Positions 13,303 to 64,000 of a DNA stretch of 64,000 nucleotides are shown here, piece by piece. The position numbers and the translations under genes are program-made. Positions within the stretch are counted from its first letter, which is position 1. Every line of letters begins with the position of its first letter. The stretch spans positions 33,939-97,938 of the forward strand of contig PUQB01000535.1 in assembly GCA_003024785.1 (NCBI GenBank). The letters run 5' to 3'. Source of the DNA: Selaginella tamariscina (Eukaryota; Streptophyta; Lycopodiopsida; Selaginellales; Selaginellaceae). The notes beneath the pieces are model-generated. The model searched no databases. It was given only the letters and a program-made list of their open reading frames with translations, and was not told the DNA's origin.

Positions 13303-13793
13303 ATGCAAGTTATAACTAAAATAGGCATGGCATTTTCTAATAATTAGCAATTTTAGCTATTTTTAGCATTTTCTAATATTAAAGGAATATTCTTTAAAAT
13401 ATATATTTGAAAATAAAATATTCTTTAGAATATTCTATTTTGTATTCAACCCTTTAATAAATTATAGCATTCATTGAACAAAAATTAATAACATTATAAA
13501 ATAAAAAGTATTAAATTATATAATATATTGCCTAATATAACAATTAAGGAAAAGCATAAGAGGTACATTATATAAATATTGATGTTGTTATTAAAATATT
13601 AATATTTAAATATAACATTATTAATTAAAATTTGTAGTAGTAATAATATATATATAATATACAAAATCCTATAATAATATAGTCAATCGTTTTTAAATTT
13701 ATATAGTTAAGTAAACAATTTGGTACTATTATTAAAGAGTTTATAATAATTATGAATATTAAATATATGATATTTTATAATTTTATAATTGCT
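13303..13793. repeat. Left TIR (13303-13329) and AT-rich subterminal region of copy C
   Basis: The TIR matches the transposase-side ends at 23255, 23825, 38947 and 49469. The following 460 bp is over 80 percent A+T by eye and recurs behind every transposase gene in the window, with conserved blocks such as AATATTAATATTTAAATATA and TTTGGTACTATTATTAAAGA. Confidence 0.75.
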
Positions 13794-16060
13794 TTAAGCT
13801 TCAGAAAACATACATTCTCTTTCAGTTTTGTTAATCATAGCTTTATTAACGCTTCTGACATCCACCCATATCGAATGGATTTAACATTTATAAAATATGC
13901 TGGGTCTTTTTGATTGGGAGACCATATGTTCTTTAGGCATCCATTATATCTTTCACTCTCCTTCTCGTGTCGCCTTTTTTGTGGTTTGAACCATGCAACC
14001 TTAACAATATTATTTTTTGTGATTACTTCAGGTGTGTTGATAATTGACCCATCCAAATACGCTGATTATATGACACATCTGGAGTAATGAGAACCATCAT
14101 TAGTTTTTGAAGATCCTGGCAGCAATCAAAGTATGCTTTAGGTTTTTGGTTTCTTTGTCCAACAAAGTGTGGGGTTTGCACTTCCACATCACTACTGGCT
14201 TCTATGTCATCTGTGCTCAGTGATGTCATTTTAATCTCCTCTCGCCACCTTGTTTTAGGCCAAAAAGGGTGTTGCAATTCTATACTTGTGACAATAGGCC
14301 CTTCCAACTCTCGAACAACAGTCTCCCAATAGTCCACTACATGCTTAATAGTTCTGAGTAACCAATTGCCTTATCAGAATTCTTTACATCGATTTTTGAA
14401 CCCATGCCACATATTTTTTGATGTCATCAATAATAACCTCTTGTTCCTTGAGCTGGACACTTAATGGAATACGGGTTTGGTTGTCCTTCTGGGAGAAGTG
14501 GCTTTCCATTCTCTCCACTTTTGAAGAGCATTAAGCCCTCTTTCGGTAACCACTCATGCTCTGATGGCCATAATTTGTACTGCATAATAGATATACCATC
14601 TCGTATGGAGAAAAAGAATTGTAGCGGCACAAGGTGACCAACTAAAGAATCACTCCCTCTTTTATATACTCCTTGAGAATTTTTTTGAAGTCTGGCACCT
14701 CAGTCACAAGCAAAGCACAACTTCTCTTGGAGATGCAATTTTCAAAAAGATTCATCATATGCGGTAGGTAAGTGCACTTGTCCTTTTTGTAGAGTTGGAG
14801 ACCTTGCTGAAGAACACATCAATATTATCTTCATGAGTGTGACCAACCATAAGAACACTAAGCGTGATTGTCTCAAACACACCTTTGGTAACAAGCATTG
14901 ACAAGTATGCTAGCACATATCTAAAAATAAAAGTAAGTATGAGCTTGAGAAACCATGTCTCACAACCATGTCCATGTGTTAGCACACATGTCAATGAAAT
15001 CGGAAGTTTCATGACATTTTCAAGCACTTTGGTGTTGCAATAAGCTTTGGAATGCTGGTCTTTGAATGATCCATCTTATCATGGATCAAGCACATGTACT
15101 CTGATGGACATGACACAGAAAGCATGCGGTGTGCATAAGTAATGAGACTGGCAAGTTTGTTGTGCAATCATGTGGGCCTCCATCTTCTTTTGAATGGCAG
15201 TGATCTCCACCAAGGTTTTTGCACAAGCCTCTGCAGCCTTCAATGATGTACAAGTGTCACACTTGGAAAAGCTAGAGTGTTTTGCAATCTCTACATCCTT
15301 AAAATGAGTATTCCATATGTTGTTGAAGGTACCAATGCAGATTGCTTGCAGCCCCATCAAACTAAGGCACTTGTTCACATGTTCACACAGCTTCAATTGA
15401 GTGTATATTGAAGGTAAAACCTTGAGATTTTCCCTGACCCTGCATTGGTGGTTCAGCATTTGTGAGGCATCCTGTTTGCATTTGCTTCCACAAAAGCCTT
15501 GAGTATCTCTATGATTGCCATAATGTGAGAGCGGGTTTTGAACAAGCGAGTGTTCCCATGTACTGAGGTTTGCGCTCCATGTAGCCACTCATCCCTCCGA
15601 CAATAAAACGTGGTCTTTGGGATCCCGTATATATTGTACCAAGCTTTGAAGCAGATGGCCACCTTATTAAATACCATGGATGTACTCTAATAACCTGTGT
15701 CCGAGGCCATTCCATCAATACAACCAGTTAGTGCAGCATATCCAAACTCATGCCTTTGCTTTTGGGTGAGCTTACGAAAGACATGTCTACATTGGGTAAT
15801 TTCATTCTGGTATGCCATCTGACAACACTTCTTCTTGCAGCAGTCATTATGAAAATGCTCATAACATTTTCGGAAGATGTAGGATCCATCTTCACCCTCT
15901 TGTTGAAACTTGCAGGGGAAGATTTGCAACCCATGAATCGCCTTTTCTTACAATAGGACCAATGCAAGGAACCTCTTCAAATATGAGTTGTTCTTCCGGG
16001 CTGTTATTATTGAAATCCAACCCAGAATATGTTGAACCATCTTGCCGTCTTAATTCAGAA
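13794..16060 (-). pseudogene. DUF7869-type transposase-like gene, copy T1 (5' truncated, internal deletion)
   Basis: The minus strand encodes pieces collinear with T3 at 35322-38440: SELRRQDGSTYSGLDFNNN, the KKKCCQM Cys cluster, FNKVAICFKAWYNIYGIPKT, CDTCTSLKAAEAC, then a jump from the HGHGCE region into the intron next to YVLAYLSMLV, GHTHED, and the C-terminal domain ending in the stop at 13794-13796. About 370 bp holding the MDNCAGEN motif are deleted. The first 125 or so residues are replaced by palindrome-array sequence at 16061, at a GGGGTAGC-like array spacer. Many frameshifts. It cannot make an active enzyme. Confidence 0.7.
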
Positions 16061-16900
16061 GCTACCCCTTCGGAGAGAGTCAACGAGATAATCCTGCCGT
16101 TGACTTTACCTCATTGGAGAGACTCAACGGGGTTAATCCCGCCGTTGATTCCCTCCCGCGAGGAAGAATCGGCGGAATTAATCCCGCCCCCGGATCTTCC
16201 TCGTCTGAGAGGCGGCGGGATTAATCTCGCCGCGGACTCCCTCCCGCGAGGAAGAATCGGCGGGATTAATCCCGCCCCGGATCTTCCTCGTCGGAGAGTG
16301 GTGGGATTAATCCCGCCGCGGACTCCCTCCAACGAGGAGTACCGACGGGATTAATCCCGCCGCCGGATCTTCCTCTCGGAGAGGTGGTGGGATTAATCCT
16401 GCCGCGGACTCCCTCCAACGAGGAAGTACCAACGGATTAATCCCGCCGCTGAATCTTCCTCGTCGGAGAGAGGCAGCGAGATTAATCCCGCCACAAATCC
16501 CTCCGACGAGGAAGAGGGGTGGATTAATCATGCCCACAACTCTGACAACAGGGAATAGGTGGCATGATTAATCCCGCCCACAACTCTCTCCGAATGTATG
16601 ATTCAAAGAGATCTCGAATATATCCTGCTCACAAATATTTAAAATAGGGAAGTGGTGACGAAATTAATCCCGCCACCCTTCTCTGCCTCCTAAAATGGTT
16701 GGCGAGATTAATCCCAAATAACTCTTTCTAATAAATTCAAGTAATTCTTTATCAATTGAGAGAGTTATTGGTGGGATTAACCTGCCGCTCTTTTTAAGAG
16801 GCGGAGAAGCATTGCCCAAACTAATTTTGCCATAGCTATCAAAGAGATGGTGGCGTGATTTAATCCGCCACCGCTTCGAAGAGGCGAAAACAGGCTAACC
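16061..16900. repeat. Palindrome array, class 1 (copy C)
   Basis: Units of GGCGGGATTAATCCCGCC and variants recur every 35-60 bp. Spacers contain CTCCGACGAGGAAGA and its complement, so larger imperfect hairpins are possible. Units toward the right become more diverged. Confidence 0.85.
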
Positions 16901-17139
16901 GAGAATATTAAGTTAGAAGTATATTTAAACGGGATAAATCTCTAATAGAATATATTGTAATCCTAATGCATTCCTAAACCCCTAAATTTTAAATTTAAGA
17001 GAGAATGTAAGAGAGGGAATCTTTATAACTATATCTAAATTTTTTTAATACTTACTTGTAAACAGCATTGAAGGCGCCATGCTTTCCTATAAACAATAGC
17101 GCACCCAATTTAATGTCGCTCCTGAGCTGATCACTATGG
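16901..17139. other. Remnant of the AT-rich core between the arrays (copy C)
   Basis: This is the reverse complement of the edge of the core seen at 43070-43300, including GGCGCCATGCTTTCCTATAA and GAGTGAATC-like text. It shows that copy C keeps only one end of the core, so the microsatellites and about 2 kb were lost internally. Confidence 0.55.
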
Positions 17140-18012
17140 TTAGACCCTCGGCGGCGGGATTAATCCGCTATATGGTTAGACCCTCGGCGGCGGGATTAAT
17201 CCCGTCGCCTACGCATGCCCTACGCAGAATCCGGCGGATTTATCCTGTCTGAAGGGTCTAGGAGGCAAGATTAATCCCGCTGGATTTCGCGTAATGCATG
17301 GGTGTCCGGCGGGATTCATCCTGCCGCCCATGGCCTGCGTGCTGGGCCTAGACGGCGAGATTAATCCCGCTGCGTACGCATGCCCTACGCAGAATCCGAC
17401 GGGATTAATCCCGCCGCCTAGGCCCTTCAGACAAGCCATTGGCGGCGGGATAAATCCACCGGATTCCACGCAGGGCATGCGTACGCAGTGGGATTAATCT
17501 CGTCGTCTAGGCCTAACACGCAGGCCATGGGCGGTAGGATGAATCCCGTCGCACGCCCATGCCATGTGCAAAATCCGGCAGGATTAATCCCGCCGCACAT
17601 GGCCTACGGGAAGGGCCTGGGTGGCGAGATTAATCTCGTCAAGCCTTCAATGCCTGGTGGAGGGATGAATCCTGTCACCCTTCGTTTTTTCCTCCATTGG
17701 TGAGTCAGACCAATCCCAAACATTTCTGTCTGAGCCGTAAAAGGTTTACAACATACCAATGGAGGGGCTGAGAAGGGTGGCCAGATTCATTTCACCATCC
17801 CTTACATGGTGGGCGAGATTAATCCAGCCGCCTTTCTGGAGCCCCTGAAGGGGTGTGCCAAATAAATCCTGCCCAGTTCTCTCTGAGACCAAGAAGGGTG
17901 GCGGGATTAATCCCGCACACCCGTTCAGGGCCTTTAGAAAGTAGCGAGATTAATCCCGCCCACTCTTTCAGGAGGCATTGAAAGGGTGGCGAGATTAATC
18001 CCGCCGCACCTT
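17140..18012. repeat. Palindrome array, class 2 (copy C)
   Basis: GGCGGGATTAATCCCGCC units are separated by spacers of the GCATGCCCTACGCAGAATCC and GGCCTGCGTG...GGGCCT type, unlike the class 1 spacers. This array abuts the leader of the methylase-like gene. Many units differ from the consensus by C-to-T or G-to-A changes. Confidence 0.85.
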
Positions 18013-18120
18013 CCATGTGAATATATATGTGTATTAGTATATATAAGTTGCATATCTCATTTTATTTACTTTTATCATCTTATCATAATATTTTGAGTAA
18101 AAGCTAGGAAACTATGTAAA

Positions 18121-18204
18121 ACTGTCTAGAGCTCACATTTGTGGTGGTTCTAAAACGAAATGTTATCTTTCTTTGCACTAGCACAAATGTGAGCTTTGAA
18201 CAGT
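18121..18204. promoter_or_regulatory. Leader hairpin upstream of methylase-like gene (copy C)
   Basis: Two 23-nt arms, 18121-18143 (ACTGTCTAGAGCTCACATTT then GTG) and 18182-18204, are near-perfect reverse complements around a loop of about 38 nt. The same structure is present in copy D (27211-27295) and copy F (39035-39119). Its position is between array and first coding exon. A role in RNA structure, splicing or promoter function is a guess. Confidence 0.5.
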
Positions 18205-18308
18205 TAATCCCGTCCACTTCTCTCTGTGTATTATTTTTGTATATTCGGGTTTATACAAGTGTGTGTGCGTTTTTATATGATTTGTATTCATAATGTATTA
18301 TTTTGCAG

Positions 18309-20861
18309 AAAAACGATTTAATTAAACAAAGAGATCGAGTCATTAGTATGGAGTCGTCGTCAAATTCTGGGTAAGAATTAAAATAAAATCTGTTATACTT
18401 GGATATGTGCTTGAAGAACTAATCATTTTTGTATTCAGATGTGGAATTGAGGTGGCATTGAAGACGAGAGTAGGAGAAGAGATGGGCAGGGGGATTCTGG
18501 AATCAACTTGGCCATATTTCAAACTAAACTTGAAGCGCATTGGAACAACCATGGTTGCTGTCAAATTAACCTTTGTCACATTGCATGGACAAGCAAAACA
18601 ATGGAAAGTGGGTGTGCTATCAAGCATCCGAAAGCATATGCCTTATTCCATCCAATGTCACGTTCTCGGATCCAGAGGTCGCTAGTTACAACATTAATTT
18701 TGGGTGGTCTTGTCGACTTGTGGATAATGACGTTCACGTGTTCATTAATGATGTTGACTGTGGAGTTCTTCTTCAACTCAACAAAAGCCCATCTATGGAG
18801 GGGATTTAACTAGATGTCTACTTCGAAGATCTTCAGACTCATCGAGTAGGTGTATTCTCAATAGAGATTGCTTCACAATATAAACATCCACATGTGGAGC
18901 AATCGTCCCTCTTCACATTGAAGAAGAACACAGCGACATCATAAGGGAGATTGAGAGTGTGTCTCGGTCTCAGGTTCTTTACAGATCACGTTCAATTTGC
19001 TTAGAAAATTTTGGGAGCTGGAAGAGTGTGCCGAGAACATTAAAATAGCATCAATCGGGGATCACACATGTTAATTCGGATCGTAGAAGAAAATCATCAG
19101 TCGTTTTGTCAGTTGCACCTGTGGCATCCCATGCTGCAATAAGCCACAAGGAAATGATGTTGGATGATAGGATTTATGAGTGTAGGGTTAAGTATTGCAG
19201 CGTGAACCCAAACTTTAATTACAGGCCACTCAACCAGGAACGTGTAGTTGAGCTCATGGAGAAGATGAAGGACAACAATTCTTATACCGTTCCACATAAT
19301 GATGTTTTGTGTCTATACTACGAGAGAAACAAAGGCGCTGACAAAGTATGGATCTCAACACCAGAACAAATGAGGAAGATTCAGACGGAAAATAGAAAAT
19401 CAATCAAGTACTACATCATTAGTGGCTAGCACACAATAACGTCAGCCCAATGACTTCTCGATGAACACAACAAAGGAACGATGGCAACAAAACTTTCTGA
19501 GCATACTCATGAGAAGCTGACGAAAAGATCAACGTTTTTAGCGAAGGCAAATCTATAATTGAGCAGTACCATAAGTTATCAGCGAATGGGATGCTGCAAA
19601 CCAACCACTACAACACAAAATATGGCAGAAGTTCAAACACACGCGAGCCGTGTGGGAATCTCTTCAGTGACCACAAAGAGCTATTGTAAGGAATACATAA
19701 TGTGCGATGTACATGGTAAGTAAATTGTTTGGGCGGGATTTATCTTGCCGGTATATTAATCTATCTTTTTTTTTTCCAGAGAGTTGAAGAAATTATAGCA
19801 GTTGATTTTGCCCAGGTGGGCGGAAAGAAAACATCCTTTTTGATGATGTTGATTTCTTGTCTCGAGGATAAGATCTTTACCAAATGGTTAGGGATTATGG
19901 AATCCTTTGCAAAAGGAACACTGAAGAAGAAACAGACAAGTGAAGAGGAGCCCTTAGAGAAGTTTGCAAAGAAACCCAGTAAGACGTCGAAGGCTAAGTC
20001 TGTTCAATCTACAAAGGATGTAGATAACGATGTCAAGCTCACATGGTTGAAGCCTTTAAATGGAACAACGATGGAGGAGATGGAAGTCTTGGTTGATTTG
20101 ATGGCAAACTACAAATTAACAACAGCAACCCCACATCTCCTTTTCATCTCAAGGCAATGGAGTTGAAGATGGTCAGGCACTTCAAGGAGTGGTTGGGAAT
20201 ACACTGCCACAAATTGGGTTGGACCTCGGCTTCAACATACGAAGAGGTCAGGAAATATTTGCATATGACAAACGATGATATGCTTGTCGAATGGGTGAAT
20301 CAATAGGAAGATTTGAGCAAGAATCTATTGCACAACCCTGAACCGATACACCGATAGCTGAGAGTGACGTATTCGGCAATGTACGTTATCCAAACATTAC
20401 AAGTCAAGCAGCACGGAGCATCATCAACTTGATCAGGGGTCCTCACAGTGATGCATGGGTTTTTGACTACTGCACTAGGGGGTCCATCTTGAAGGAGTGT
20501 TACCTTCGGGATATATGTGTGTTTGCCATTGAAACGGATAAGACCATGGTTGAGGACCTGAACAAGTGGATAGAGAGGTTCTCAACTGACTACCCCAACA
20601 AACCCATACAAGAGTATTTGAGAAAGTTCCCTCTCGATAAGTGTGATAGTTTTGAAGACGAATCTGGTTCAATGTCGGAGTCTGAGGATGAACTTTAGAC
20701 CAGAAGTTATCTCGAGGAGTACAGAACATTCACATACTCCATTACCCATGGAAATATCAATAGAAGATACGAAAGGTCTTGAACCATCTCACAAGCGGCC
20801 TAGACCTTCTTCACCTCACTCAGAAGGTAATAGCGAAGAAGAATTGTTAATGAGTTCTTAG
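18309..20861 (+). pseudogene. ParB/DNA-methylase-like fusion gene, copy C (degenerate)
   Basis: Exons 18309-18370 (ATG at 18348), 18439-19715 and 19780 onward match copies B and D. The frame across PEVASYNINFG and RLVDNDVHVF is intact here although B and D are shifted there, which makes this copy useful for rebuilding the consensus. The ParB-like segment reads YCSVNPNFNYRPL, but the glutamine codon of SGQHT is a stop (TAG at about 19426). Near 20334 about 600 bp are deleted, joining NLLHN to PEPIHR, so the DRRV part and an intron are gone. The FDYCTRGSILKECYL motif remains. Clearly dead. Confidence 0.65.
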
Positions 20862-21043
20862 AGTGACAAATAATTGTAAATTTTGTATATTTCGTTTATA
20901 TTTGTATAGAAAATAAATTCTCAAGGATTAATGAAGCTTTTAGTTTAAACATGGGTCACACATTAACAAGGTAAATAATATACCTTGATAATTATAAGGT
21001 TAGCTAACTATCATTTTGCAAATGTAATGAAACAGTTGAGAAC

Positions 21044-22286
21044 ATGGATTTTCAGCATTGCCATGAGGTAAGAGAGGGGTTTGGCAAAAATTTCTTGTGC
21101 CACATGTCAGAATGACAGAGTTCATGCAGGAAATAGATAATAATGCAGCTCAAAACATCCTTACCATGGGGACCACTTCAGTTTTTTCATCACCATTTCT
21201 ATTGGCTTCAGTTCCGAAATTAATTTCTTCAATGCCTGCAATATCTGAATCTTGTAAGGATGATGTACAATTAAATGATAAAGGGATAGGCAACGAGATA
21301 GTGTCAACAGATAAATGTGAAAGGGAGCAAACAAGTGAGTTGCAAAGTATTCAAGAGGCAACACTATCCCATGTAACTCATGGCCATATTGTGTTGTTGG
21401 ATGTCAATGGTGTTCTTCTTCATCGACAAAGGCTTGAGGATAGGAAAAAAGAAATCAAACAAGGAAATTTCATTCCTTGTCATGGTAAATTTTGATATGA
21501 TATTATTTTTTGTCTAGGGTTGGATAGTCTCTTTCAAAAGCTTAGGAGATGGATGTGCTTGTGGGGATTTGGTCATGCATGCAGATTCACAACTTGACAC
21601 CGCTGTTGAATTTACTTAAGAAAAATTGTAATGTTGCAGAAGAGATGATTCATAAAGATTGGATTTTTGATCAACGAGTATGTTATAAACCTCTCGAATT
21701 TTACAATATAAAAAAAGAAAGTAAGCCATACTTCTTCAAGAATGAAAGATTTATTGGGACTCATGGGGAGATCATTCGCTTAAGAATAATGAAGAACGCA
21801 CATATGTTAGTGGTAGACGACTCTCCTCAGAAGGCTATGCTCAACCAAAACACTGCTTGTATTTATCCAATCACTTTAGACTCATATTCTGATACCGATA
21901 TCATGGATGAGTTAGTGAACTACTTGGATACGTGCCTTAAAAAGAAGAATCTCGAAAACTTTTGTGAGCAGTATCCACCGTATCAAACATTTTCTAAAGC
22001 TTTTCTTTCTCGTGATTTTGAATTTTATAAAATGAAGGATAGCAACCGGGCGCTTTATAATATTATTCTTAAGGAACGTCAATTTTTAAATGAGCCTTTA
22101 TGCAAACCTTCTCTTATCACAGCTTATGTATTAACAAAGATGGCAACTCCCAATTGCATTCGTGAGAGTGTTAGGTGGTGGCAACAACATCAAGATATTA
22201 ATCAAAATGATTCGATTAATTTAGAGAGTGATGATTTAGACAAAATGAGAAGATTTCTTTATATGATAGGAAGAAAGTATTTATAA
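21044..22286 (+). pseudogene. NIF/FCP1-like HAD phosphatase gene, copy C
   Basis: Exon 1 is 21044-21067 and exon 2 is 21130-22286 with the family's 62-bp intron. HAD motif I LLDVNGVLLH and motif IV VVDDSPQKAML are intact. A CGA-to-TGA change at about 21493 puts a stop after CHGKF, and a base is missing near 21545. The C-terminal part is otherwise open to 22286. It differs from B, D and E at many codons and is the oldest-looking copy. Confidence 0.65.
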
Positions 22287-22574
22287 AAAAATTAACATGT
22301 TGATAAGAAAATGATTTCATTTGTAATTATGTTTGATAGTATTTTTAATTATTGTAAATTATTTTTAGAACGAAGAATAATATGAATATTTTAAGATATT
22401 TTAGGAATATTCCTTACTAAGTAAGGTTATTGAAGGATTAATTTATTAATTAATTAATATTTAAGGCTTAATTATATATTAATTAAATAATTAATTAATA
22501 ATTAAAACTTAATTAGTAATTTATTTTATATTCCCATTTTCACATATCATGCCCACTTTAGTTACAACGTGCAT
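22287..22574. repeat. Right subterminal region and TIR (22548-22574) of copy C
   Basis: AT-rich tail as in copy B, ending in the inverted repeat CATGCCCACTTTAGTTACAA then CGTGCAT. The direct repeat ACTT follows. Confidence 0.75.
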
Positions 22575-22578
22575 ACTT

Positions 22579-23254: not shown

Positions 23255-23689
23255 ATGCATGTTGTAACTAAAATGAGCATGGTTATAGTCCCATTTCCTA
23301 ATAATTAGCAATTTTAGCTATTTAATTAGCATTTTCTAATATTAAAGGAATATTCTTTAGCATTCATTGAACAAAAATTAATAGCATTATAAAAGTAGAA
23401 GGTATTAAATTATATAATATATTGCCTAATATAACAATTAAGGAAGAGCATAAAGGTACATTATATAAATATTAATGTTGTTATTAAAATATTAATATTT
23501 AAATATAACATTATTAATTAAAAATTTGTAATAGTAATAATATATATATAAAATCCTATAATAATATAGTCAATCTTCCATATCATTTTTTAAATTTATA
23601 TAGTTAGTAAACAATTTGGTACTATTATTAAAGAGTTTATAATAATTATGAATATTAAATATATTATATTTTATAATTTGGTAATTGCT

Positions 23690-23820
23690 TTAAACTTCAG
23701 AAAACATACATTCCCTTGTAGTTTTGTTAATCGTGACTTTAATAACGCTTCTTTACATCCACTCATATCGAATGGATTTAACATTTATAAAACATGCTGA
23801 GTCTTTTTGATTAGGAGACC
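23690..23820 (-). pseudogene. Transposase-like gene fragment of element G, 3' end
   Basis: The minus strand encodes the last 40 or so residues of the transposase-like protein (SPNQKDSACFINVKSIRYEW, stop at 23690-23692). It is cut at GAGACC by insertion of copy D. The upstream continuation is at 32187-32336. Confidence 0.7.
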
Positions 23821-23824
23821 ATGT

Positions 23825-24329
23825 ATGCAAGTTGTAACTAAAATGGGCATGGCTATAGTCCCATTTCCTAATAATTAGCAATTATAGCTATTTAATTAGC
23901 ATTTTCTAATATTAAAGGAATATTCTTTAGAATATATGTTTGAAAAGAGAATATTCTTTAGAATATTCTATTTTGTATTCTACCCTTTAATAAATTATAG
24001 CATTCATTAAACAAAAATTAATAACATTATAAAAGTAGAATGTATTAAATTATATATAATTGCCTAATATAACAATTAAGGAAGAGCATAAGAGGTACAT
24101 TATATAAATATTGATGTTGTTATTAAAATATTAATATTTAAATATAACATTATTAATTAAAAATTTGTAGTAGTAATAATATATATATAAATCCTATAAT
24201 AATATAGTCAATCTTCCATATCATTTTTTAAATTTATATAGTTAAGTATACAATTTGGTACTATTATTAAAGAGTTTATAATAATTATGAATATTAAATA
24301 ATATGATATTTTATAATTTTGTAATTGCT
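23825..24329. repeat. Left TIR (23825-23851) and AT-rich subterminal region of copy D
   Basis: Nearly the same sequence as 23255-23689, which explains the apparent 570-bp tandem repeat here as two transposase-side ends lying next to each other by nested insertion. Confidence 0.75.
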
Positions 24330-27100: not shown

Positions 27101-27210
27101 TTCCATGTGAATATATATGTGTATTAGTATATATAAGTTGCATATCTCATTTTATTTACTTTTATCATCTTATCATAATATTTCGAGTAAAAGCTAGGAA
27201 TCTATGTAAA

Positions 27211-27295
27211 ACTGTCCAGAGCTCACATTTGTGGTGGTTCTAAAACGAAATGTTATCTTTCTTTTGCACTAACACAAATGTGAGCTTCGGACAGT
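27211..27295. promoter_or_regulatory. Leader hairpin upstream of methylase-like gene (copy D)
   Basis: Arms 27211-27233 (ACTGTCCAGAGCTCACATTT then GTG) and 27273-27295 pair with one mismatch around a 39-nt loop. The arms stay complementary in copies C and F although the sequences have drifted. Confidence 0.55.
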
Positions 27296-27397
27296 TAATT
27301 ACGTCTACTTCTCTCTGTGTATTATTTTTGTATATTCGGGTTTATACAAGTGTGTGTGCGTTTTTATATAATTTTATTATAGTGTATTATTTTGCAG

Positions 27398-48900: not shown

Positions 48901-48971
48901 ACGAGAAGAAGAGCGAAAAATATAATGGATGCTTAGAGAAAACATGGTCTCCACTCAAAAAGACCTAGACT
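45967..48971 (+). pseudogene. DUF7869-type transposase-like gene, copy T4
   Basis: Collinear with T3 from MFNTGDKVCLL at 45967. The frame through HGNTCLVKTCSHIMAAIEI is intact and shows which base T3 lost. Many frameshifts (near 46250, 46365, 46711, 47335, 47455, 47800) and an intron at about 47905-47958. MDNCAGENKN and GHTHEDIDVFFS remain. The C-terminal 40 residues are deleted: after PLKKT the text jumps to AT-rich sequence at 48971. Dead copy. Confidence 0.7.
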
Positions 48972-49856: not shown

Positions 49857-50054
49857 CATTAAAAAGTGTGAGAACTTCATAAGAAACTCATTCATATTAA
49901 AAAGTGTGAGAACATGATAATTTACTTAAACCTTCAGAAATCTCACCTATTTAAGTCACATATATGCATGTGTATGTGGGATGTTGTGTGTGTCTATATA
50001 ATACACAATATAACTTAAATATATCCAAAGACATTGTTTATATGTATTAAAGGC
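49857..50054. other. Unassigned AT-rich stretch
   Basis: Contains a duplicated ATTAAAAAGTGTGAGAAC phrase. Nothing else recognised. Confidence 0.4.
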
Positions 50055-53000: not shown

Positions 53001-54086
53001 CCCTAACCATGTGTGCCACTAAGCACACTTGGCAAAGAGACCTAACCTCCCTTGGGCATGTGCCCAAGGCTTGGCCCTAGTCCTAGAACACGAACATGTG
53101 CTTGTCAGGTTCACCAACCCCTCAGGCCTTAGGCTCAAGACACGACCGCGTGGATTATGCCCTGAGTGTTGCATTTGTATGAAACCCATCCTAGTGTCAC
53201 ATGTGTGTGTGGCACCGTTTCACAGGACAAGGCTATCTTCATAGCCCCTTAGAGACGAGTTAGACCCAGTGCCATGATCGTGGCTCACTAGATGCCAACT
53301 CTTAAGCCCACAGTCGAATACCCCTTTGGGAACCTGTCTGCATGAGAGCTCATCCCACAATTAGCTAAGTTCACGGACAATGCTCACATTTACCCAGATG
53401 TGCGAGCGTTACCGGACGAAAGGAGTTGGCTAACTCCCTGGATGCGGCGTACCCGGGCACAACAGTGCAGATTTGCCAACGATAAGGGTAGGCTACCCCT
53501 AAAGTGTGATGTACCCCGCGGCGAGTGGGACACGGCAACATAGCAAGTATGCCTTGACAACATGAGACGAACCCATGCCAGCGGGGAGGAAGGAACCAGA
53601 GACCTCTCAGTCTCTGGCCTGCTTGCCCCACACCTACTCTACCTTATTTCTATGACAGAGCCAGCCCCCCTAAAATGCCATTCTAATAAGTGGGCTGGCA
53701 TAGAAATCTATCCCAATGCAAAAGAGACGGTGAGTTTACCCAATCAACCCATCAACCCTTAAACCCTACCCAAGGGGTTTAGGGCGTGGGGTTGAGTCAA
53801 CCCTAGGGGTGTTTCTAACCATATTCGACACGCCAAACTCACCAGAGCCAACCAAAAATCCAAATGGGACACAAATCGCCGAGAGGGGGCTTTCTAGAAG
53901 GTAATTGCTAGCTTCGCCTAGAGTTTCTTGTAAATACTTAGTGACACCCAGCCGGACCACCACTAGATACCTAAGTGCACTAAGCAGGCCTGTTTCTTAC
54001 ACCCTCTAGGGTCTGTCAACGAACTCGGTAGGTAACAACAGTCAACATCCAAAGTAAAGGGTCGAGTCATAGTAAAAACTATGATA
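50055..54086 (-). mobile_element. Non-coding LTR retrotransposon on the minus strand
   Basis: A full LTR at 52339-54086 lies next to a primer-binding site, read on the minus strand as TGTTATCAGAGCCAAG (52321-52336), close to the initiator Met-tRNA consensus TGGTATCAGAGC. The partner LTR, truncated, is 50055-50999, ending AAAAACTATGACA. The 1.3-kb interior (51000-52338) is AT-rich with no gag or pol frame, so this looks like a large non-autonomous derivative. It interrupts the gypsy reverse-transcriptase relic at 54087. Confidence 0.6.
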
Positions 54087-56151
54087 CTATCCAACATTTC
54101 CTCTGTAAATGAAATAGGAAAAACATCCTTTTTCATGGCATCATTTAGCTTCTTGTAATTTACACATACTCTCAATTTCCCTATTCTTCTTAGGAACTAT
54201 CACATGTGGTAATAACCACTGTGCACCTTGTATAGAATAAATAAAACCAATATTTAACAGTTTATCTATCTCCTCCTTAACAAGATATGCATAATTAAAA
54301 TTCATCCTATATACTCTTTGTTTCACATGTTCACTTCTTGGTAACAATTGTATTGTGTGTATACACAATTCAAGAGGTATGCCTTTAAGATCTCTATAAG
54401 ACCAAGTAGAAACATCTTGATACTTTTGAAATAAGTTCATTCATTTTTCTTAGAATTCCTTATTTAATTCATGAGCAATAAATAAAACTTTAAACTCATT
54501 TTCTGTGCCTATATTCACTTGCTTTAAAGGTTCTATGGTATACACATATGTATATTTTACATGTTGTTCCTGAAAATCAATTTCATTCGAGATTGCTTTA
54601 TAGAACTTTTCACATAATCCAAGCCTATTGTTTTTCTTCTATTGAACAATTTTATTTTCTTTCAGCATTACATGAAAGTCAATATATGTTAGGACCTTTA
54701 AATCAAGATATGCTTTCAAGATTTCTACTTCCTCCTAATCATTTAATCAATTAAACCTAATCATATCCTTTTAAAACAATAGGTCGACTTTCCTTTTTAA
54801 CATACTTCTTAGTATAATTATAGATCACTAGTTATCCTTCTTCTTCTCCCAGTGTCATCTTTCATGTTCCTCAATCCTATATAACTTTTGTAGATTTTAG
54901 CCAAGGTCTACCTAATAACATGATATATACAGTGGTTTTCCTTCCTAATTTAGAGGATAATGAGATTAGAAGGAGCATGTTTAATAGGACCTAAACCCAT
55001 TTTCTTACAAGCATGCTCTTCTATAAAGTTTAACTCCTGAGCCTCCATCTATAAGTGCTCCTTTTATCTTATTTTTACCAATATATACTTTGTTATTTCG
55101 TACATACCCATGATAATTACCTTCTTTTTTCATAATGTTTCTTTACTCGATGAATTTCATGTCCTATATAAGTAGATAGAGATTTCAGAATAATGTTTAA
55201 TATTTGCAGAATTTGATTTTTAATATATGAAGCAATATGTATTATTTGTCTCAACGTAATTGTGATCTCTTGAGTCAATGCACTTTGAGCCATTGATTTT
55301 ACCACATCATTATGAATCTGTTTCACATGAATACTTTATTTTATAGGAATATTCTATTGTACAAAAATATTCTATTTTACATAAATATTCTTTTCCATAA
55401 GAATATTCTTTTTCTCTTGAATATTCCTCCCTAAAATAGAATCAGTTATTTTTAGATTTTTAGGTACTTCAATTTCTTCTTTGTACTCCTTGTTTATAAT
55501 CATTTTGATATGCATAAACTTCTTTTCCTAGATAGGACTTATCTAGTCCTCTGTAGGAAGCCTCATTTTTATAATCTTTTATTGAATGTCCTTCTTTGTT
55601 ACACATTTGACATTTTGACAACTTTAGCCTACATTCATCCATAGTATACTCAGGATTTTTGCACTTGGCACACTATACCTTGGCACCAATTCCTTATACA
55701 TAGGACTGTTTTTTAAGGATAATACCAACTACATAATATTTTCTCATCATTTTTATAGTCCCAAACCTTAATAGGTTCTTCTTCATTGTTTGAACTATCT
55801 TCTCTTCGCCTTAAGGACTTTTCTATCATTTTTTGAATAGTCATTACATAATGCCTATATAGCTTCTACAATCCTTGCTTATACCTTTGAAGCAAATCAT
55901 CTTCCTTAACATATAGTATGCATTTCTTTTCATACTTCTTAAAATGGTGTGTATACTCTTTTAAAATTTTAGTTTTTCCTTGCAAGATATTTATCAGCTT
56001 TTCTAAGTGCTTTTTAAGTTTTTTAAAGTATTTTTTAAAAGCTTCTATAACTTTCTCATAATCTTCTCTCTCTAACTCATAATACCAATTAGATGCATTT
56101 CCTTTTAATGTGTGAGGAAATATAAGCAACTTATTTACATCGCTTACTTTA
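54087..56151 (-). pseudogene. Ty3/gypsy gag-pol remnant, doubly interrupted
   Basis: Reading the minus strand: gag (56151 to about 55866; HTLKGNASNWYYELE and a KKYFKK basic region); two zinc-knuckle-like motifs, CAKCKNPEYTMDEC (55631-55672, Tyr at the His position) and CQMCNKEGHSIKDY (55571-55612, Tyr at the last Cys); a protease-like ALIDGGSGVKL (about 55031-55062); reverse transcriptase start EEIDKLLNIGFIYSI and VIVPKKN (54141-54440) then, after a frameshift, VNYKKLNDAMKKDVFPISFT (to 54087). The order gag, knuckle, protease, RT is that of Ty3/gypsy. The gag end is cut by transposon copy E and the RT by an LTR element. Confidence 0.7.
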
Positions 56152-56178
56152 ATGCATGTTGTAACTAAAGTGGGCATG

Positions 56179-56439
56179 ATACGTGAAAATGGGAATATAA
56201 AATAAATTACTAATTAATACTTAAGTTTTAATTATTAATTAATCATTTAATTAATATGTAATTAAGCCTTAAATATTAATTAATTAATTAATTAATCCTT
56301 CAATAACCTTACTTAGTAAGGAATATTCCTAAAATATCTTAGAATATTCATATTATTCTAAAAATAGTTTACAATAATGAAGAAATACTATCAAACATAA
56401 TTACAAATGAAATCATTTTCTTATCAACATGTTAATTTT
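56179..56439. repeat. Subterminal region of copy E
   Basis: Reverse complement of the tail at 7092-7336, with TTAATTAATTAATTAATT and GGAATATTCC. Confidence 0.7.
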
Positions 56440-57673
56440 TTATAAATACTTTCTTTCTATCATACAAAGAAATCTTTTCATTTTGTCTAAATCATCACTC
56501 TCCGGATTAATCAAATCATTTTGGTCAATATCTTGATGTTGTTGCCACCACTTAACACTCTCACGAATGCAATTGGGAGTTGCCATCCTTGTTAATACAT
56601 AAGATGTGATAAGAGAAGGTCTGCATAAAGGCTCATCTAAAAACTGACGTTCCTTAAGAATAATATTATAAAGCGCCCGGTTGCTATCCTTCATTTTATA
56701 AAATTCAATATCACGAGAAAGAAAAGCTTCAGGAAATGTATGATACGGTGGATACTGCTCACAAAAATTTTCGAGATTCTTCTTTCTGAGGCACGTATCC
56801 AAGTAGTTCACTAGCTCATCCATGATATCGGTATCAGAATATGGATCGAAAGTGATTGGATGAATACAAGCAATGTTTTGGTTGAGCATAGCCTTCTGAG
56901 GAGAGTCGTCTACTACTAAGATATGTGCATTCTTCGTTATCCTTAAGCGACTGATCTCCCCATGAGTCCCAATTATTCTTTCATTCTTGAAGAAGTATGG
57001 CTTGCTTTCCTTTCTTATATTGTGAAATTCGAGAGGTTTATGACACATTCGCTGGTCAAAAATCCAATCTTTACGAATCACCTCTTCTGCAACACTACAA
57101 TGTTTCTTAAGTAAATTCAACAGCGGTGTTAAGTTATGAATCTGCATGCATGACCAAATCCCCACAAGCGCACCCATCTCCTTAAGCTTTTGAAAGAGAC
57201 GATCCAACCCTGGACGAAAAATAATATCATATCGAAATTTACCATGACAAGGAATGAAATCTCCTTGTTTGATTTCTTTTTTCTATCCTCGGGCCTTTGT
57301 CGATGAAGCAGAACACCATTGACATCCAACAACACAATATGGCCATGAGTAACATGAGATAGCGTTGCCTCTTGAATACTTTGCAAATCACTTGTTTGCT
57401 CCCTTTCACATTTATCCGTTGCCACTATCTCGTTGCCTATCCCTTCATCATTTAATTGTACATCATCCTTACAAGATTCAGATATTGCATGCGCTGAAGA
57501 AATTGATTTCGGAACTGAAGCCAATAAAAATGATGATGAAGTGGCCCCCATGGTAACGATGTTTTGAGCTGCATTATTATCCATTTCCTGCATGAACTCT
57601 GTCATTCTGACATGTGGCACAAGAAATTGTCGCCAAACCCCTCTCTTACCTCATGGCAATGCTGAAAATCCAT
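56440..57673 (-). CDS. NIF/FCP1-like HAD phosphatase gene, copy E
   Basis: Exon 1 is 57650-57673 (MDFQHCHE) and exon 2 is 56440-57587, with the 62-bp intron 57588-57649. This copy has the cleanest C-terminal half: motif IV VVDDSPQKAML, then one open frame to the stop at 56440-56442. One base is missing near 57285 (GGATAGAAAA against GGATAGGAAAA in D), breaking the frame just after motif I. The motif I aspartate-asparagine pair (DVNG) is the same in every copy, so the Asn is a family trait and not a copying fault. Confidence 0.68.
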
Positions 57674-57885
57674 GTTCTCAATTATTTCATTACATCTGCA
57701 AAATGATAATTAGCTGACCTTAAAATTATCAAGGTATATTATTTACCTTGTTAATGTGTGACCCATGTTTGAACTAAAAGCTTCATTAATCCTTGAGAAT
57801 TTATTTTCTGTACAAATATAAAAGAAATATACAAAAATGCCTTATGTTACACTCATTTACAACTATTCATCACTCTATCAATTCA

Positions 57886-59511
57886 TTACAATTCTTCTTC
57901 GCTATTACCTTCTGAGTGAGGCGAAGAAGGTCTAAGCCGCTTGTGAGATGGTTCAAGATCTTCTGCATCTTCTATTGATGTTTCCATGGGTCCTGGAGTG
58001 TGCGAATGTTCTGTACTCCTCGAGATAACTTCCGGTCTAATATCTGATTGAGTTCGTTCTCAGACTCCGAGATTGAACCAGATTCACCTTCAGAGCTATC
58101 GCACTTATCTGGAGGGAACTTTCTCAAATACGCCTTTATGGATTCGTTGGGGTACTCAGTTGAGACCCAATCTATCCACTTGTTCAGGTCCTCAACCATG
58201 GTCTTATCCTTTCAACGGCAAACACACATGTATGCCGAAGGTAACACTCCTTCAAGACGGACCCCCTAGTGCAGTAGTCAAAAACCCACGCATCACTGTG
58301 AGGACCCCTGATCAAGTTGACGATGCTCCGTGCCGCTTGACTTGTAATGTTTGGATAACGTACATTGCCGAATACGTCACTCACCTATCGGTGTATCGGA
58401 TGGAGGTTCAGGGCCGTTGGAGTGCAAACAGATGCCTGGCCAGTCATTTGGAAGCTTGAAATTGTTTGGCGCATTCCTAACAACCAAGTGAACAACGTAT
58501 CAATGCACTTGGGATTAGCATCGTTCATATAAAATCCTGTCCAACGATGTCTATTCTTCTTGGCGAAGGCGAAGGCAAAAGTATCGGTGACATGAGCAAG
58601 AATCAAGAAATAAATACCTGAAAAAGTAGGTATCAGTGAAGAGCGCAAGCATGAATTCAATAATAAATACCTTCTATGTATATGCTTGCACGGCTAAGTT
58701 TCTCCACCAGATCCTCTAGTGCCCTATCTGTCGAAAGATTTTTTGACACCCGCCGATCCATCACGAACAATTGAAACGGTTTCCTACAAGCAGTGATGTT
58801 ACCCCATAAAGTCTCCGAATCTAACAACAAACATCTGTAGGGCTTGTCGTGATTCGTAGCATCCTCCTTTATAAGGTTCAATTCGGTTCTCCGCTGCTGA
58901 AGGACTGCCATAAGAGAAGGCGTCATCCCAATGTTCTCCTTTTTGGCGTTGGCGTGCAATAGATTCTTGCCTAGATCTTCCGATTGGTTCACCCATTCGA
59001 CAAGCATATCATCGTTCGTCACATGCAAATATTTGCTGACCTCTTCATATGTTGAAGTCGAGGTCCAACCCAGTTTGTGGCAGTGTATTCCCAACCACTC
59101 CTTGAAATGCCTGACCGTCTTCAAACTCCATTGCCTTGAGATGAAAGGAGAGGTTGGCTGCTGTTATTAATTTGTTAGTTTGCCATCGATCACCAAATCA
59201 GCCAGACTTCCATCTCCTCCATCGTTGTTCCATTTAAAGGCTTCACCATGTGAGCTTGAAATCGTTGTCTACATCCTTTGTAGATTGAACAGAGACTTAG
59301 CCTTCAGCGTCTTACTGGGTTTTTTTGCAGACTTTTCTGAGGGCTCCCCTTCACTTGTCTGCTTCTTTTCAGTGTTCCTTTGAAAAGGATTCCATAATCC
59401 CCACCATTTGGCAAAGATCCTATCTTCGGGGCAAGAAATCAACATCATCAGAAAGGATGTTTCCTTCCCGCCCACCTGGGCAAAATCAACTGCTGCAATT
59501 TCTTCAACTCT
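57886..59511 (-). CDS. ParB/DNA-methylase-like fusion gene, copy E (exons 3-4 only)
   Basis: Exon 3 is 58671-59511 and exon 4 is 57886-58617, with the 53-bp intron 58618-58670. The first coding bases at 59511 are exactly those that follow the splice acceptor in B and D (AGAGTTGAAG); upstream is array-flank sequence instead of intron and ParB-like exons. The DRRV and FDYCTRGSVLKE motifs are present. Frame breaks: missing bases near 58222, 58386 and 59275 and a short end at 57886. It would make at most a ParB-less methylase-like fragment. Confidence 0.62.
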
Positions 59512-59624
59512 CTGATCCATTGGTATTTGTAAACCTTCTCCGTTGTTCCCTCCATTGGTATTTTGTAAACCTTCTCCGTCTCAGACAGAGTTAGTCGGGA
59601 TTGATTCAACATACCAATAGAGGA

Positions 59625-60285
59625 AAAAAAGAAGGGTGGCGGGATTAATCCCGCCACCGGGCAATGAAGGTTCGGAGAGACTAATCCCGCCGCCCTCTCA
59701 TAAATCATGCGCTCACAATATATTGGCTGCGGCATTTTGAACAGGGATGGGTGGGGCGGGATTAATCCCGCCGCTTATATCCTGCGGAAGTGCCTGAGCG
59801 GCGGGATTAATCCACCGCCCTCCGCGAAGGGCATGAGCGTGGGGCGGGATTAATCCCGCCGTTCATGTCCTGCGTGAATTCCCTGGCGGCGGGATTAACC
59901 CGCCGCCTTACGCGTAGGACATGTCATGCAGGCTCTTCGGTTAGCCTTCCGTGCAGGATCTTTCATGCAGGCTCTTTGGTTAGCCTCATGAGCGGCGGAT
60001 TAATCCCGCCGCCCATCCCCTGTAAATGCCCTGCACGGAATCCGGCGGGATTAATCCTGCCCATTAGGGCCTTCACACATGCCATTGCCGGCGAGATAAA
60101 TCCCGCCGCATTCCGCGCAGGGCATGGGTGAGCGGCGGGATTAATCCGCCGCCGAGGCCCCTCACGCAGGCCATGGGCGGCGGGATTAATCCCGCCGCCA
60201 TGGCCCAACCATATAGCGGCAAGATTAATCCCGCCGCCGAGGCCATAAACCTATAGCGGCGGGATTAATCCCGCCGCTCGAGGGC
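59625..60285. repeat. Palindrome array, class 2 (copy E)
   Basis: Reverse complement of much of 25718-26560 in copy D, including the paired GGCTCTTCGGTTAGCC and GGCTCTTTGGTTAGCC blocks (about 59930-59985) and many perfect palindrome units. Confidence 0.87.
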
Positions 60286-60374
60286 TTAGCGTGTGTGCGA
60301 GAGATAAAATTAATAAATAAAAAATTATACAGATAAAAACACACACATATATATGTGTGTGTGTGTATATATTA

Positions 60375-60406
<32 letters not shown>

Positions 60407-60773
60407 GTATGTATAGGAGTGTACGTGTGTGTGCAAGAGATAAATAAATAAATAAAATTATACAGTACTGGTACACAATATATGTGTGTACATAGGTATA
60501 TATATGTGTGTATATGTATATCGTGTGTATGCGTGTGAGCGAAACAAATAAAATCATACAGATAAACAAACACACACACACACATATATATACACAGGAG
60601 TGTGCGTGTGTGTGCGAAAGATAAAACTAATAAATAAATAAAATTATACAGATAAATACACACATATATATGTGTGTATATAGATATATAATCCATAGAG
60701 AAAGAGAGAGAGTCTGTGAATATATAAGCATATATATAAACTAGTGTTGTATACTATTTGTTAATATGCATTG

Positions 60774-60811
<38 letters not shown>

Positions 60812-61162
60812 AAGCAGTGTGCGTGTGTGTGGGAGAGATAGATCAATAAAAAAAATTATATAGATACTGGTACACATAATATATGTATGTATATATGTAT
60901 ATAGGTATATGTATATTGTGTGTATGCATGTGTGAGCGAAACAAATAAAATCATACAGATAAACAAACACACACACACACATATATATACACAGGAGTGT
61001 GCGTGTGTGTGCGAGAGATAAAACTAATAAATAAATAAAATTATACAGATAAACACACACATATATATGTGTGTATATAGATATATAACCCATATGAATA
61101 TATAAGCATATATATAAACTAGTGTTGTATACTATTTGTTAATATGCATTGATTATATATAT

Positions 61163-61216
<54 letters not shown>

Positions 61217-61510
61217 GCAGTGTGCGTGTGTGTGGGAGAGATAGATCAATAAAAAAAAATTATAGATACTGGTACACATAATATATGTATGTATATATGT
61301 ATATAGGTATATATATATATGTGTATATGTATATCATGTGTATGCGTGTGTGAGCAAAACAAATAAAATCATACAGATAAACAAACACACACCCACACAC
61401 ACATATACATACACAGAGTGTGCGTGTGTGTGCGAGAGATAAAACTAATAAATAAAATTATACGCACACTCCTATACATATATACATACATAACACACAC
61501 AGATCTCACC
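60286..61510. repeat. Microsatellite block with a 400-bp minisatellite (copy E)
   Basis: Dinucleotide tracts as at 40196-41130. A unit of about 400 bp that contains AAACTAGTGTTGTATACTAT and AGCAGTGTGCGTGTGTGTGG occurs twice in tandem (about 60600-61000 and 61000-61400). The second has a long (TG)n tract at 61168-61213. Confidence 0.8.
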
Positions 61511-63294
61511 TGTGTGCACAGCCGCCGCCTCTTGAAACCCTAAGAATATACCTAAACCCTAAAGGAATTAAATATATATTAACCCTAATAGAATATTCCT
61601 TCTGAGAATATACTTAAACCCTAAAAAGAATAAATATAGATTCGCCCTAAACGAATATTCTTTCATTATTATTAACGCGTGCGTGTGCGTGGTGTATCAC
61701 ATACACCCCAAAAATATAAATCATGCAAGGATTTAACATGTGTGTGTCCATGAGAGTGTTAAAGTTTCATGTGTATCAATACATACATACACATTGCATA
61801 TATTAATACACATAATATATACATACACACGTGTATACACACAGACATACATACATATTACATGGGTTTAGGGTTTAGGGTTTAGGGTTTTGGATTTAGG
61901 ATGGATCATGCATGGTGTGTATGTATGAGAGAAGAGAGAGTGTTGAAAAATTATTTTTGTACACATTGCATATATTAGTACACATATATACTTACACATA
62001 TTATACACAGATATACATACATAGTATATGAGAGAATAGAGACAGTACATATTATGGATCAACATTGAAATATTATGGATTAACATTGAAATATTCTTGA
62101 AATAATAAGAAATTAATTGAGAAAATCCCATTAATATATACAAATGTAAATTAAGTACTCAAATAATTAACTAAATTAATTATCATAATCATGTTTAATA
62201 TTGGAATATTCTTGGAATAATAAGAAAATAATAAAGAATATCCCATTAATATAAAGAAGATTAATTACTCAAGTAATTAAGGAAATGATATTAATATATT
62301 ATATTATTAAAACTATATATGACTATATATTAGATAAAATGATGTATTATTATGTATAATTTAAAATATGTTCATAGTGTGTATTAATTTAATATTGATA
62401 ATAAGGTTTAACACATGAATATTCTTGAAATAATAACAAATTAATTGAGAAAATCCCATTAATATATACAAATGTAGAATAATTACTGCAATAATTAAGA
62501 ACAAGACTAATTTAATTATGATAATCAGGTTTAATATTAGAATATTCTTCAAATATTAATAAAATAATAAAGAATATCCCATTGATACTAGGAAATGAAA
62601 ACTAAATACTCGAGTAATTAAGAAAATAATAATAATAAACAGACTATGAATATATTTTAAATGATACATAATAATATATCAATTTATTTATTGTATAAGT
62701 ATATATTTATATATATATTATAATATAAATATACTTGAATGTAGAATATAGTCTAAAATTTCGTAATATTAAACAGCTTGAATCACTTGAATAACATTAA
62801 ATGCAATTTTAAAATACTCATTGGAACTGGAGAGTATATATGTCAAAGTGTTGGATATTTGTGTCAACTCATCTTAAATTTTATTTTCTGTTCTTTTTAA
62901 AAAATTTGAATTTCTGACATATGTATTGTCGGTCTGACATGTAAATTTGAAAATGCATTTAATTTCCCACTCAAATTAAATCTGGTTCTTTCTCCGGCAA
63001 GGGTTTCTTCATTTCTGTATTTTTCATTCTTTAGATCTTCTTTTTTCTTCATAGTGATCATCTCAGGAGCGAGATTAAATTAGGTGCTATTCTTTATAGG
63101 AAAGCACGGCGCCTTCAGTGCTGTTTACAAGTAAGTATTATAAACAAATTTAAAAATACTTATAAAGATTCACTCTCTTATCTCTCTTAAATTTACAATT
63201 TAGGGGTTTTAGGGAATGCATTAGGATTATAATATATTCCGTTAGGGATTTATCCCGTTTAAATATCCTTTTAACTTAATATTCTAGGTTAACC
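61511..63294. repeat. AT-rich core of copy E with TTTAGGG tract
   Basis: Collinear with 41131-43310 but shorter. TTTAGGG repeats lie at about 61864-61890. From 62060 the text runs almost base for base with 33180-34390. Confidence 0.65.
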
Positions 63295-63649
63295 GGGGCG
63301 GCGGGATTAATCTGGCCATTTCTTTTTCGCCTCTTCGAAGAAGTGGCGGATTAATCCCGCCACCATCTCTCGGGCAATGCTTCTCCGCCACTGAAAAAGA
63401 GTGGCGGATTAATCCCGTCGATAACCTTCTCAACTGATGAAGAGTTACCAGAATTTATTAGAAAGAGTTGTCGGCGGGATTAATCCCGCCAACCATTTTA
63501 GGAGGCAGGGAAGGGGTGGCGGGATTAATCTCGCCACCACATCCCTGTTTTAAGGATTTGGGGACGGGATTTATCCCGAGATCTCTTTGAAATCATAGTT
63601 TTGGAGAGAGTTATGTGCGGGTTTAATCCCGCCACCCATTCCCCGTCAT
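63295..63649. repeat. Palindrome array, class 1 (copy E)
   Basis: Matches the first seven units of 34395-34760 in element H with few changes. Confidence 0.85.
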
Positions 63650-63955
63650 AAGAATGAGTTGTGTGCTTGGGAACACTATTGCAGTTGTCTCTAAGGCTAA
63701 TCCTGGCAATTTGATTCACTTTGAAGGAACCCTTTTTAACAGCTATACTGGAAAAACCTAACGTCAAATCGGGTAGAGTTTCTAGAAGGTAAGTTAAAAT
63801 TGTCAATCCATACTTGAGGTAGAAAAGAGTTCTCATCGACTACTTATTTAAACATGTTGAAGTAGAATTGCAATGGTTTGCTACTTAGGGAGCATGTTAT
63901 TGTCGTCTTGGATGGTTGTTCCCAGATTGTTTATCTCAAACGGGTCTTGTGCTGG
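63650..63955. other. Short insertion in the class 1 array, partly LTR-derived
   Basis: About 300 bp not found in the other arrays. Part of it (AACGTCAAATCGGGTAGAGT near 63760) resembles the LTR family at 50785-50820. The remainder is unrecognised. Confidence 0.45.
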
Positions 63956-64000
63956 ACCGTCCTCCTCGGGGAGTCCAAGGCGGGATTAATCCCGCCGACT
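63956..64000. repeat. Palindrome array, class 1 (copy E), resumed
   Basis: Begins with CCTCCTCGGGGAGTCC spacer text and one perfect GGCGGGATTAATCCCGCC unit, cut by the window edge. Confidence 0.75.

Follow-up and report, generated by a model that had tools for sequence, protein, structure and literature searches.

A probable 14-15 kb cut-and-paste transposon of Selaginella tamariscina with a DUF7869 transposase, two accessory genes and putative palindromic regulatory arrays

The 64,000-bp stretch of Selaginella tamariscina contig PUQB01000535.1 analysed here (positions 33,939-97,938, hereafter the window; from a 300.7 Mb assembly of 1,391 contigs) contains several copies of what we consider, with a probability of about 0.8, to be a 14-15 kb cut-and-paste DNA transposon, equipped with a DUF7869 transposase, the accessory genes of a protein termed PM and of a phosphatase, and putative palindrome regulatory arrays. 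PM designates the ~976-aa element protein first labelled "ParB/methylase". Terminal inverted repeats (TIRs), 4-bp target-site duplications (TSDs), an empty site, the presence of both gene blocks within one pair of ends and a recent amplification are observed, and the element is possibly DDE-type and Sola-like. The initial annotation, made on the window alone, had proposed a multi-gene transposon of 13-14 kb. The TIR-bounded unit with three genes and 4-bp TSDs stands, and its size has to be revised: five complete elements from other parts of the assembly, bounded by TIRs of ~27 bp, were measured at 14,416-15,283 bp.

Repeats were mapped by self-comparison of the window and against reference blocks, and the ends were located by an ungapped 27-bp scan. 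Two queries were then used against the assembly. The 1,001-bp PM-block query gave at least 79 matches (40 scored of 2,196 first-look candidates), which are 99-100% identical across its initial 609 bp, while the 40 scored matches of the 1,089-bp transposase query (1,394 first-look candidates) were all 100% identical; both match counts are lower bounds, since only part of the first-look candidates was scored. Ten copies were fetched per query set, from the best-scoring matches and not at random. In the PM set, six of ten are two-ended (C600, C549a, C549b, C335, C2 and C1281), and the other four comprise two that reach a contig end, one with N runs and one without a visible transposase end. In the transposase set, four of ten are two-ended within the fetched stretches (C926, C837, C658 and C600b); for another, C647, there was no far stretch to fetch. 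Together with copies C and D of the window, this makes 12 two-ended copies. C600b is perhaps a mosaic or a badly assembled copy: its transposase piece is 100% identical to that of the window, and its phosphatase side is matched only by poor, overlapping pieces.

With the boundary as placed by the ungapped scan, nine of the 12 two-ended copies have identical 4-bp flanks, compared with a maximum of six matches when the flanks were re-paired at random in 100,000 rounds. Allowing one lost base in the TIR raises the agreement to 11 of 12, adding C549b (GTAT) and C600b (TCTA). The target sequences vary between copies and are A-rich. The two features that mark a TIR-type (cut-and-paste) transposon, terminal inverted repeats and a TSD of fixed length, here 4 bp, are therefore both present. 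In the window, nine 27-bp ends were found, each with at most two mismatches to the query end, and exact 4-bp direct repeats surround its two two-ended copies, C (ACTT at 13299-13302 and 22575-22578) and D (ATGT at 23821-23824 and 32183-32186), which bears out the shared TIRs and short direct repeats of the initial annotation.

The insertion of D provides an additional argument. This copy sits inside the transposase gene of another element, X, of which reference positions 1-642 (with a gap at 110-173) lie on the left and 639-794 on the right, with an overlap of 4 bp. When the flanks of X are joined with a single ATGT, they give a gap-free match of 347 bp to copy E at 96.5% identity, and they also span the junction in C (92.2%, two gap positions) and in F (in two pieces, the longer of which bridges it). 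The existence of this related empty site around D indicates that D moved as one unit, including its PM/phosphatase block.

The gene content of the copies elsewhere in the assembly is consistent with such a unit. In the PM set, all three genes are present in 6/6 two-ended copies, and the gene starts lie inside the TIRs in five of these, the exact PM start not having been located in one. In the transposase set, 4/4 two-ended copies have the phosphatase within the far TIR, albeit strongly diverged or frame-broken in C600b. TIR pairs outside the window do enclose these genes, and the converse situation that the initial annotation had considered, PM and phosphatase genes standing without TIRs, was found at 0/10 loci: the PM/phosphatase blocks end in a TIR at 10/10 PM-set loci, two of these TIRs having 1 or 3 bases deleted, a result that holds for these best-scoring loci, and host copies may exist elsewhere. 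From the left, a complete element consists of a TIR, the transposase gene, a first palindrome cluster, an AT-rich stretch with microsatellites, a second palindrome cluster, the PM gene, the phosphatase gene and a TIR. The transposase gene is on the minus strand, with its start codon near 3.6 kb; PM starts at 9.6-10.1 kb (in the four of five complete elements where the exact start was located) and the phosphatase at 13.0-13.8 kb. Plant-type telomere-like CCCTAAA, in two to three units, occurs in the AT-rich centre of four of the five complete elements (C600, C549b, C335 and C2), as well as in the window copies E (32698-32805) and G (61867-61887). These repeats, the spliceosome-type introns of the genes and the transposase relatives from Riccia and Physcomitrium described below are in keeping with a land-plant genome.

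The catalytic part of the transposase corresponds to DUF7869 (PF25273), with Pfam E-values of 2.9e-13 and 1e-26 on the two halves of the gene of copy E, so that the comparison with DUF7869 suggested by the initial annotation proved justified. We retrieved 48 relatives, the named ones coming from Riccia, Physcomitrium, Exaiptasia, Oculina, Holothuria and Mya, and aligned 42 of them, the six left out covering 13-47% of the query region. Among the aligned relatives, D327, D367 and D369 are invariant and D169 and D172 near-invariant, within the motifs LxxxHDKMDxxKT, QLDNC and GHTHEDID. Judging from residue conservation, this pattern of Asp residues is compatible with a DDD triad. A PDB sequence search with the transposase gave no related solved structure, with one match at E 0.18, and the comparison of its N-terminus with Transposase_23 remained below the Pfam cut-off (E 0.14 and 0.054). 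DUF7869 was found unnamed in the literature searched, which here and below covered few subscription papers.

According to a frame-aware alignment, PM has about 976 residues and its gene three introns; the introns of both the transposase and the PM genes are of the spliceosome type. Residues 12-65 of PM match the hidden Markov model (HMM) of the second of the tandem N-terminal domains of the transposase, scoring 17.3 bits when the query is restricted to the first 110 residues and 12.1 bits with the whole protein; among 500 shuffled sequences of 110 residues, the highest score was 5.9 bits. On the basis of this match, PM seems to be built in part from the N-terminal module of the transposase, or to share a common ancestor with it, and this common module may bind DNA. 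For the C-terminal 738 residues, a search of 5.8 billion proteins, limited to relatives with common short words and similar length, yielded 5,894 candidates and no relative. These 738 residues, about 20 of them in the wrong frame, made up the early PM query used in the protein, Pfam, PHROGs, NCBIfam and phage searches; the first Pfam scan took the N-terminus as a second protein, and the later Pfam and PDB searches used the corrected PM. PM matched none of the ParB or methylase models in Pfam, PHROGs and NCBIfam, no match to phage sequences was obtained with tblastn, and the PDB returned chance-like matches only. The ParB/methylase-like fusion proposed by the initial annotation is accordingly unsupported, the two labels deriving from short motif resemblances. 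Several candidate relatives were rejected as chance, namely AvrL567-A (0.026), a P-type ATPase model (0.047) and 3imf (E 2). The match to dTor (1.7e-06, PDB) was also rejected, as it consists of nine weak repeated matches to a designed repeat protein.

The HAD phosphatase of the initial annotation is confirmed by a NIF/HAD-like profile match. The joined sequence matches NIF (PF03031) in Pfam at 47.3 bits against a cut-off of 21.8 (2.4e-12), and the unjoined open reading frame at 6237-7088 of the window does so at 35.5 bits (1e-08). The protein search with the phosphatase gave no match among 1,334 candidates; p27 (PDB), considered as a relative, was rejected as chance.

The non-coding centre of the element carries an 18-bp palindrome, GGCGGGATTAATCCCGCC, arranged in two clusters with steps of ~44 bp, upstream of the start codons of both the transposase gene and the PM gene. 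With a 12-base core and at most one mismatch allowed, each of the five complete elements contains 30-43 of them, spaced mostly by 42-46 bp, that is, about four helical turns. In C2, where the clusters lie at 3.7-4.5 kb and 7.8-9.2 kb, the aligned columns hold 0.98-1.99 bits inside the 18 bp and at most 0.51 bits beyond; as the sites were picked by the 12-base core, only the outer six columns are an independent sign of conservation. The window contains 95 palindromes, with arrays at 25754-27092 in copy D and at 16129-18002, 34406-35164, 39238-40149, 43261-43752, 45532-45809, 59641-60272 and 63245-63993, and none in 12,621 bp of other window sequence (7364-13302 and 49470-56151). Nine were counted in 15,879 bp flanking the five complete copies, possibly within other copies of the element. 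The regular steps, the conserved motif with free spacers and the position upstream of the genes lead us to propose that the palindromes are putative binding sites. In the literature searched, the core string appeared only in unrelated work.

The 100% identity over 1,089 bp in all scored transposase matches points to a recent burst. Relative to the older copy C, the transposase has a ratio of nonsynonymous to synonymous substitution rates (dN/dS) of 0.41, PM one of 0.345 and the phosphatase one of 0.477. Values as low as these were reached in 0/300, 0/300 and 69/300 neutral simulations, respectively, which were run with the mutation spectrum seen in the data, CpG effects included. Selection is thus shown for the transposase and for PM, and not for the phosphatase: its raw ratio looked constrained, and constraint was discarded once the spectrum-matched neutral control gave no separation.

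Several observations weigh against the interpretation as a functional transposon with accessory genes. The dN/dS of the phosphatase is indistinguishable from neutral, and its first motif reads DVNGV in the window copies. Active HAD phosphatases carry DxDx[T/V], with a second Asp; as this residue is replaced by Asn here, phosphatase activity is doubtful. The flanks of C549a, AACG and AAAA, show no matching TSD, and polishing possibly made the copies look more alike than they are. Among the 10 PM-set copies, none has all three genes intact, and the phosphatase of C549a is the sole gene that reads through; the three genes contain many single-base insertions or deletions (indels), far outnumbering stop codons. 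In eight of ten copies, the phosphatase frame is shifted at residues 108-109, where there is a G/A homopolymer; in PM, indels recur at residues 339, 361, 628, 770 and 889 (in 7, 4, 5, 4 and 4 of 10 copies). Since these sites recur between copies, random assembly error cannot explain all of them; systematic homopolymer error, a faulty joined reference, or defects inherited in the amplified lineage are possible.

The mechanism that we propose is as follows. The DUF7869 protein would be the transposase, a DDE/DDD nuclease that cuts and joins the ~27-bp inverted ends, with insertion taking place at varied A-rich sites and producing the 4-bp duplication. The transposase and PM genes would be transcribed away from a shared centre holding the two palindrome arrays, and an element protein may bind these arrays, most likely via the N-terminal module common to PM and the transposase. 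The phosphatase would be an additional accessory gene whose activity is uncertain. By a logic similar to that of VANC in VANDAL transposons, PM and the arrays would most likely keep the element expressed against host silencing. A more specific version, which we put forward tentatively and regard as rather unlikely, makes PM a self-encoded, sequence-specific DNA-binding regulator that coats the arrays upstream of its own gene and that of the transposase and keeps the element unsilenced or organises it, with the phosphatase acting on host transcription. If true, it would represent a further anti-silencing invention of transposons, unrelated to VANC and TET/JBP, and the recent burst would be explained.

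Other explanations were weighed against the proposed transposon with functional accessory genes. The one to be taken most seriously, somewhat unlikely in our estimation, is that of an ordinary Sola-superfamily transposon in which PM and the phosphatase are two captured host genes, mere passengers irrelevant to transposition. The 4-bp TSD, the short TIRs and the size fit Sola as described in the available part of PMC10741241, Sola1 is listed for the moss Physcomitrella in the available part of PMC9033089, and the transposase relatives include one from Physcomitrium; the passenger status would also agree with a phosphatase that is not significantly constrained and is frame-broken near residue 108 in 8/10 copies. 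PM fits this explanation poorly: its dN/dS is below the neutral expectation (0/300), it has an N-terminal module in common with the transposase, and no host source is visible for its C-terminal 738 residues in the protein search described above. An origin of PM from a ParB-methyltransferase system of prokaryotes or viruses, carried on a transposon and with the palindromes acting as parS-like or methylation sites, would account for the palindromic arrays and for a motif-level resemblance of SGQHTITAAQ-like and VFDYCTRGS-like stretches; it is improbable in view of the lack of any ParB or methylase model, credible PDB relative or phage match for PM in the searches made.

The absence of the PM/phosphatase half from copies E and F, and of the transposase half from A and B, could also suggest that two separate mobile elements, one with the transposase and the other with PM and the phosphatase, were repeatedly nested or joined. 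This is very improbable and already contradicted, given that 12 copies have a transposase end on one side and a phosphatase end on the other, nine with identical flanks (11 if a lost base is allowed), and that D moved as one unit according to its empty site. As for an integrated virus or a Polinton-like element, to which the length and the several genes might point, we give it almost no credit: only DUF7869 and NIF passed the Pfam cut-offs among the scanned proteins, the single PM piece tried had no relative in viral contigs, and no capsid or viral polymerase gene was recognised between the TIRs.

Within the window, self-comparison and the block map recovered the five phosphatase/methylase-like blocks of the initial annotation (A, B, C, D and G) and its four main transposase-like genes (C, D, E and F), to which fragment X is added. 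The consistent block order that it had described for C, D, E and F holds for C and D, and partly for G, and does not extend to E and F, which lack the PM/phosphatase half in the window. Copy A (1-1962, plus strand) is a partial PM/phosphatase block cut by the window start and by an N run of 492 bases (1963-2454), which separates it from copy B (2455-7363, plus strand), a PM/phosphatase block with a minus-strand TIR at 7337-7363; because of this N run, the order of A and B may be an assembly artefact. Copy C (13303-22574) has TIRs at 13303-13329 (plus) and 22548-22574 (minus) and is internally deleted to 9,272 bp; copy D (23825-32182), with TIRs at 23825-23851 (plus) and 32156-32182 (minus), is internally deleted to 8,358 bp. 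The AT-rich stretch is mostly gone from both and is kept in G and F. On the plus strand of D, the PM gene (27437-30531, ~976 aa) has introns at 27460-27520, 28832-28892 and 29737-29789 and six frameshifts relative to the reference, and the NIF/HAD-like phosphatase gene (30738-31896) encodes 388 aa in register, with five frameshifts. The transposase end of X (23255-23824, plus strand, TIR 23255-23281) is split by D and resumes at 32183-32338. The junction of X with E lies near 32338/32349 and leaves two transposase-type ends facing each other; it looks rearranged, as the outer flanks AGAG and ACTT differ. Copy E (32349-38947, plus strand) is truncated on the left and comprises part of the AT-rich stretch, a palindrome cluster, the transposase gene and a minus-strand TIR (38921-38947); the gene (35322-38440, plus strand) encodes ~1,020 aa after one frameshift, with an intron at 37258-37311, and is the one assigned to DUF7869 (PF25273). 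Copy F (38948-49469, plus strand) consists of a PM-side edge, palindromes, the AT-rich part, the transposase (45529-49469) and a TIR at 49443-49469. Copy G (56152-64000, minus strand) is cut by the window end and carries a TIR (56152-56178), the phosphatase and C-terminal PM (56152-59515), palindromes and an AT-rich part (62077-63655). A foreign, diverged repeat family, with copies ~68-79% identical, occupies 11103-13143, 43782-45510 and 49470-54088, and its piece at 43782-45510 splits copy F.

Compared with known systems, the element is closest in description to Sola, which the initial annotation had reasonably named as the first comparison in view of the 4-bp TSD, the short TIRs and the size. 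In the available part of PMC10741241, Sola elements are described with a 4-bp TSD, TIRs of 11-1124 bp, lengths mostly of 2-9 kb with some above 15 kb, and a DDD transposase; compared by description alone, our 4-bp TSD, ~27-bp TIRs and 14.4-15.3 kb fall within this range, at its long end as regards length. PM-like or phosphatase genes are, however, not mentioned in that part of the Sola account. The TSDs of Mutator, 7-12 bp (PMC10741241, same part), and of KDZ (Zisupton), 8 bp (PMC12730594, available part), differ from the 4 bp found here, which sets the element apart from Mutator/VANDAL and from KDZ. In its regulatory layout, it resembles VANDAL of Arabidopsis, where, according to the accessible portion of PMC5735166, the accessory protein VANC binds to dense arrays of a short motif in the non-coding DNA of the transposon and causes this DNA to lose methylation. 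VANDAL nevertheless belongs to the MuDR superfamily (PMC12730594, available part), and the motif described here is an 18-bp palindrome whose binding is putative. The fungal transposons with TET/JBP dioxygenases likewise have a captured enzyme gene in a DNA transposon, with other superfamilies and enzymes involved; they show another route beside the VANC model (PMC12730594, same excerpt). KolobokP and KolobokD are DDD/E lineages with an added enzyme, a His-Me finger or DEDDh nuclease (PMC9587614, in the portion available); they belong to another superfamily, their enzymes are nucleases and not a phosphatase, and that portion mentions no palindrome arrays. No description of the combination of an accessory PM with palindrome arrays was found in the literature searched, and for a DNA transposon uniting ParB, phosphatase and methyltransferase it returned unrelated work only. 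The element would give DUF7869, a domain of unknown function with relatives in moss, liverwort and animals, a concrete and testable function, and it could be used to study how a DNA transposon evades silencing. Accessory enzymes have already been described in DNA transposons, and what the present element adds to them is a new pairing of DUF7869, an orphan PM, a NIF-type phosphatase and phased palindromes.

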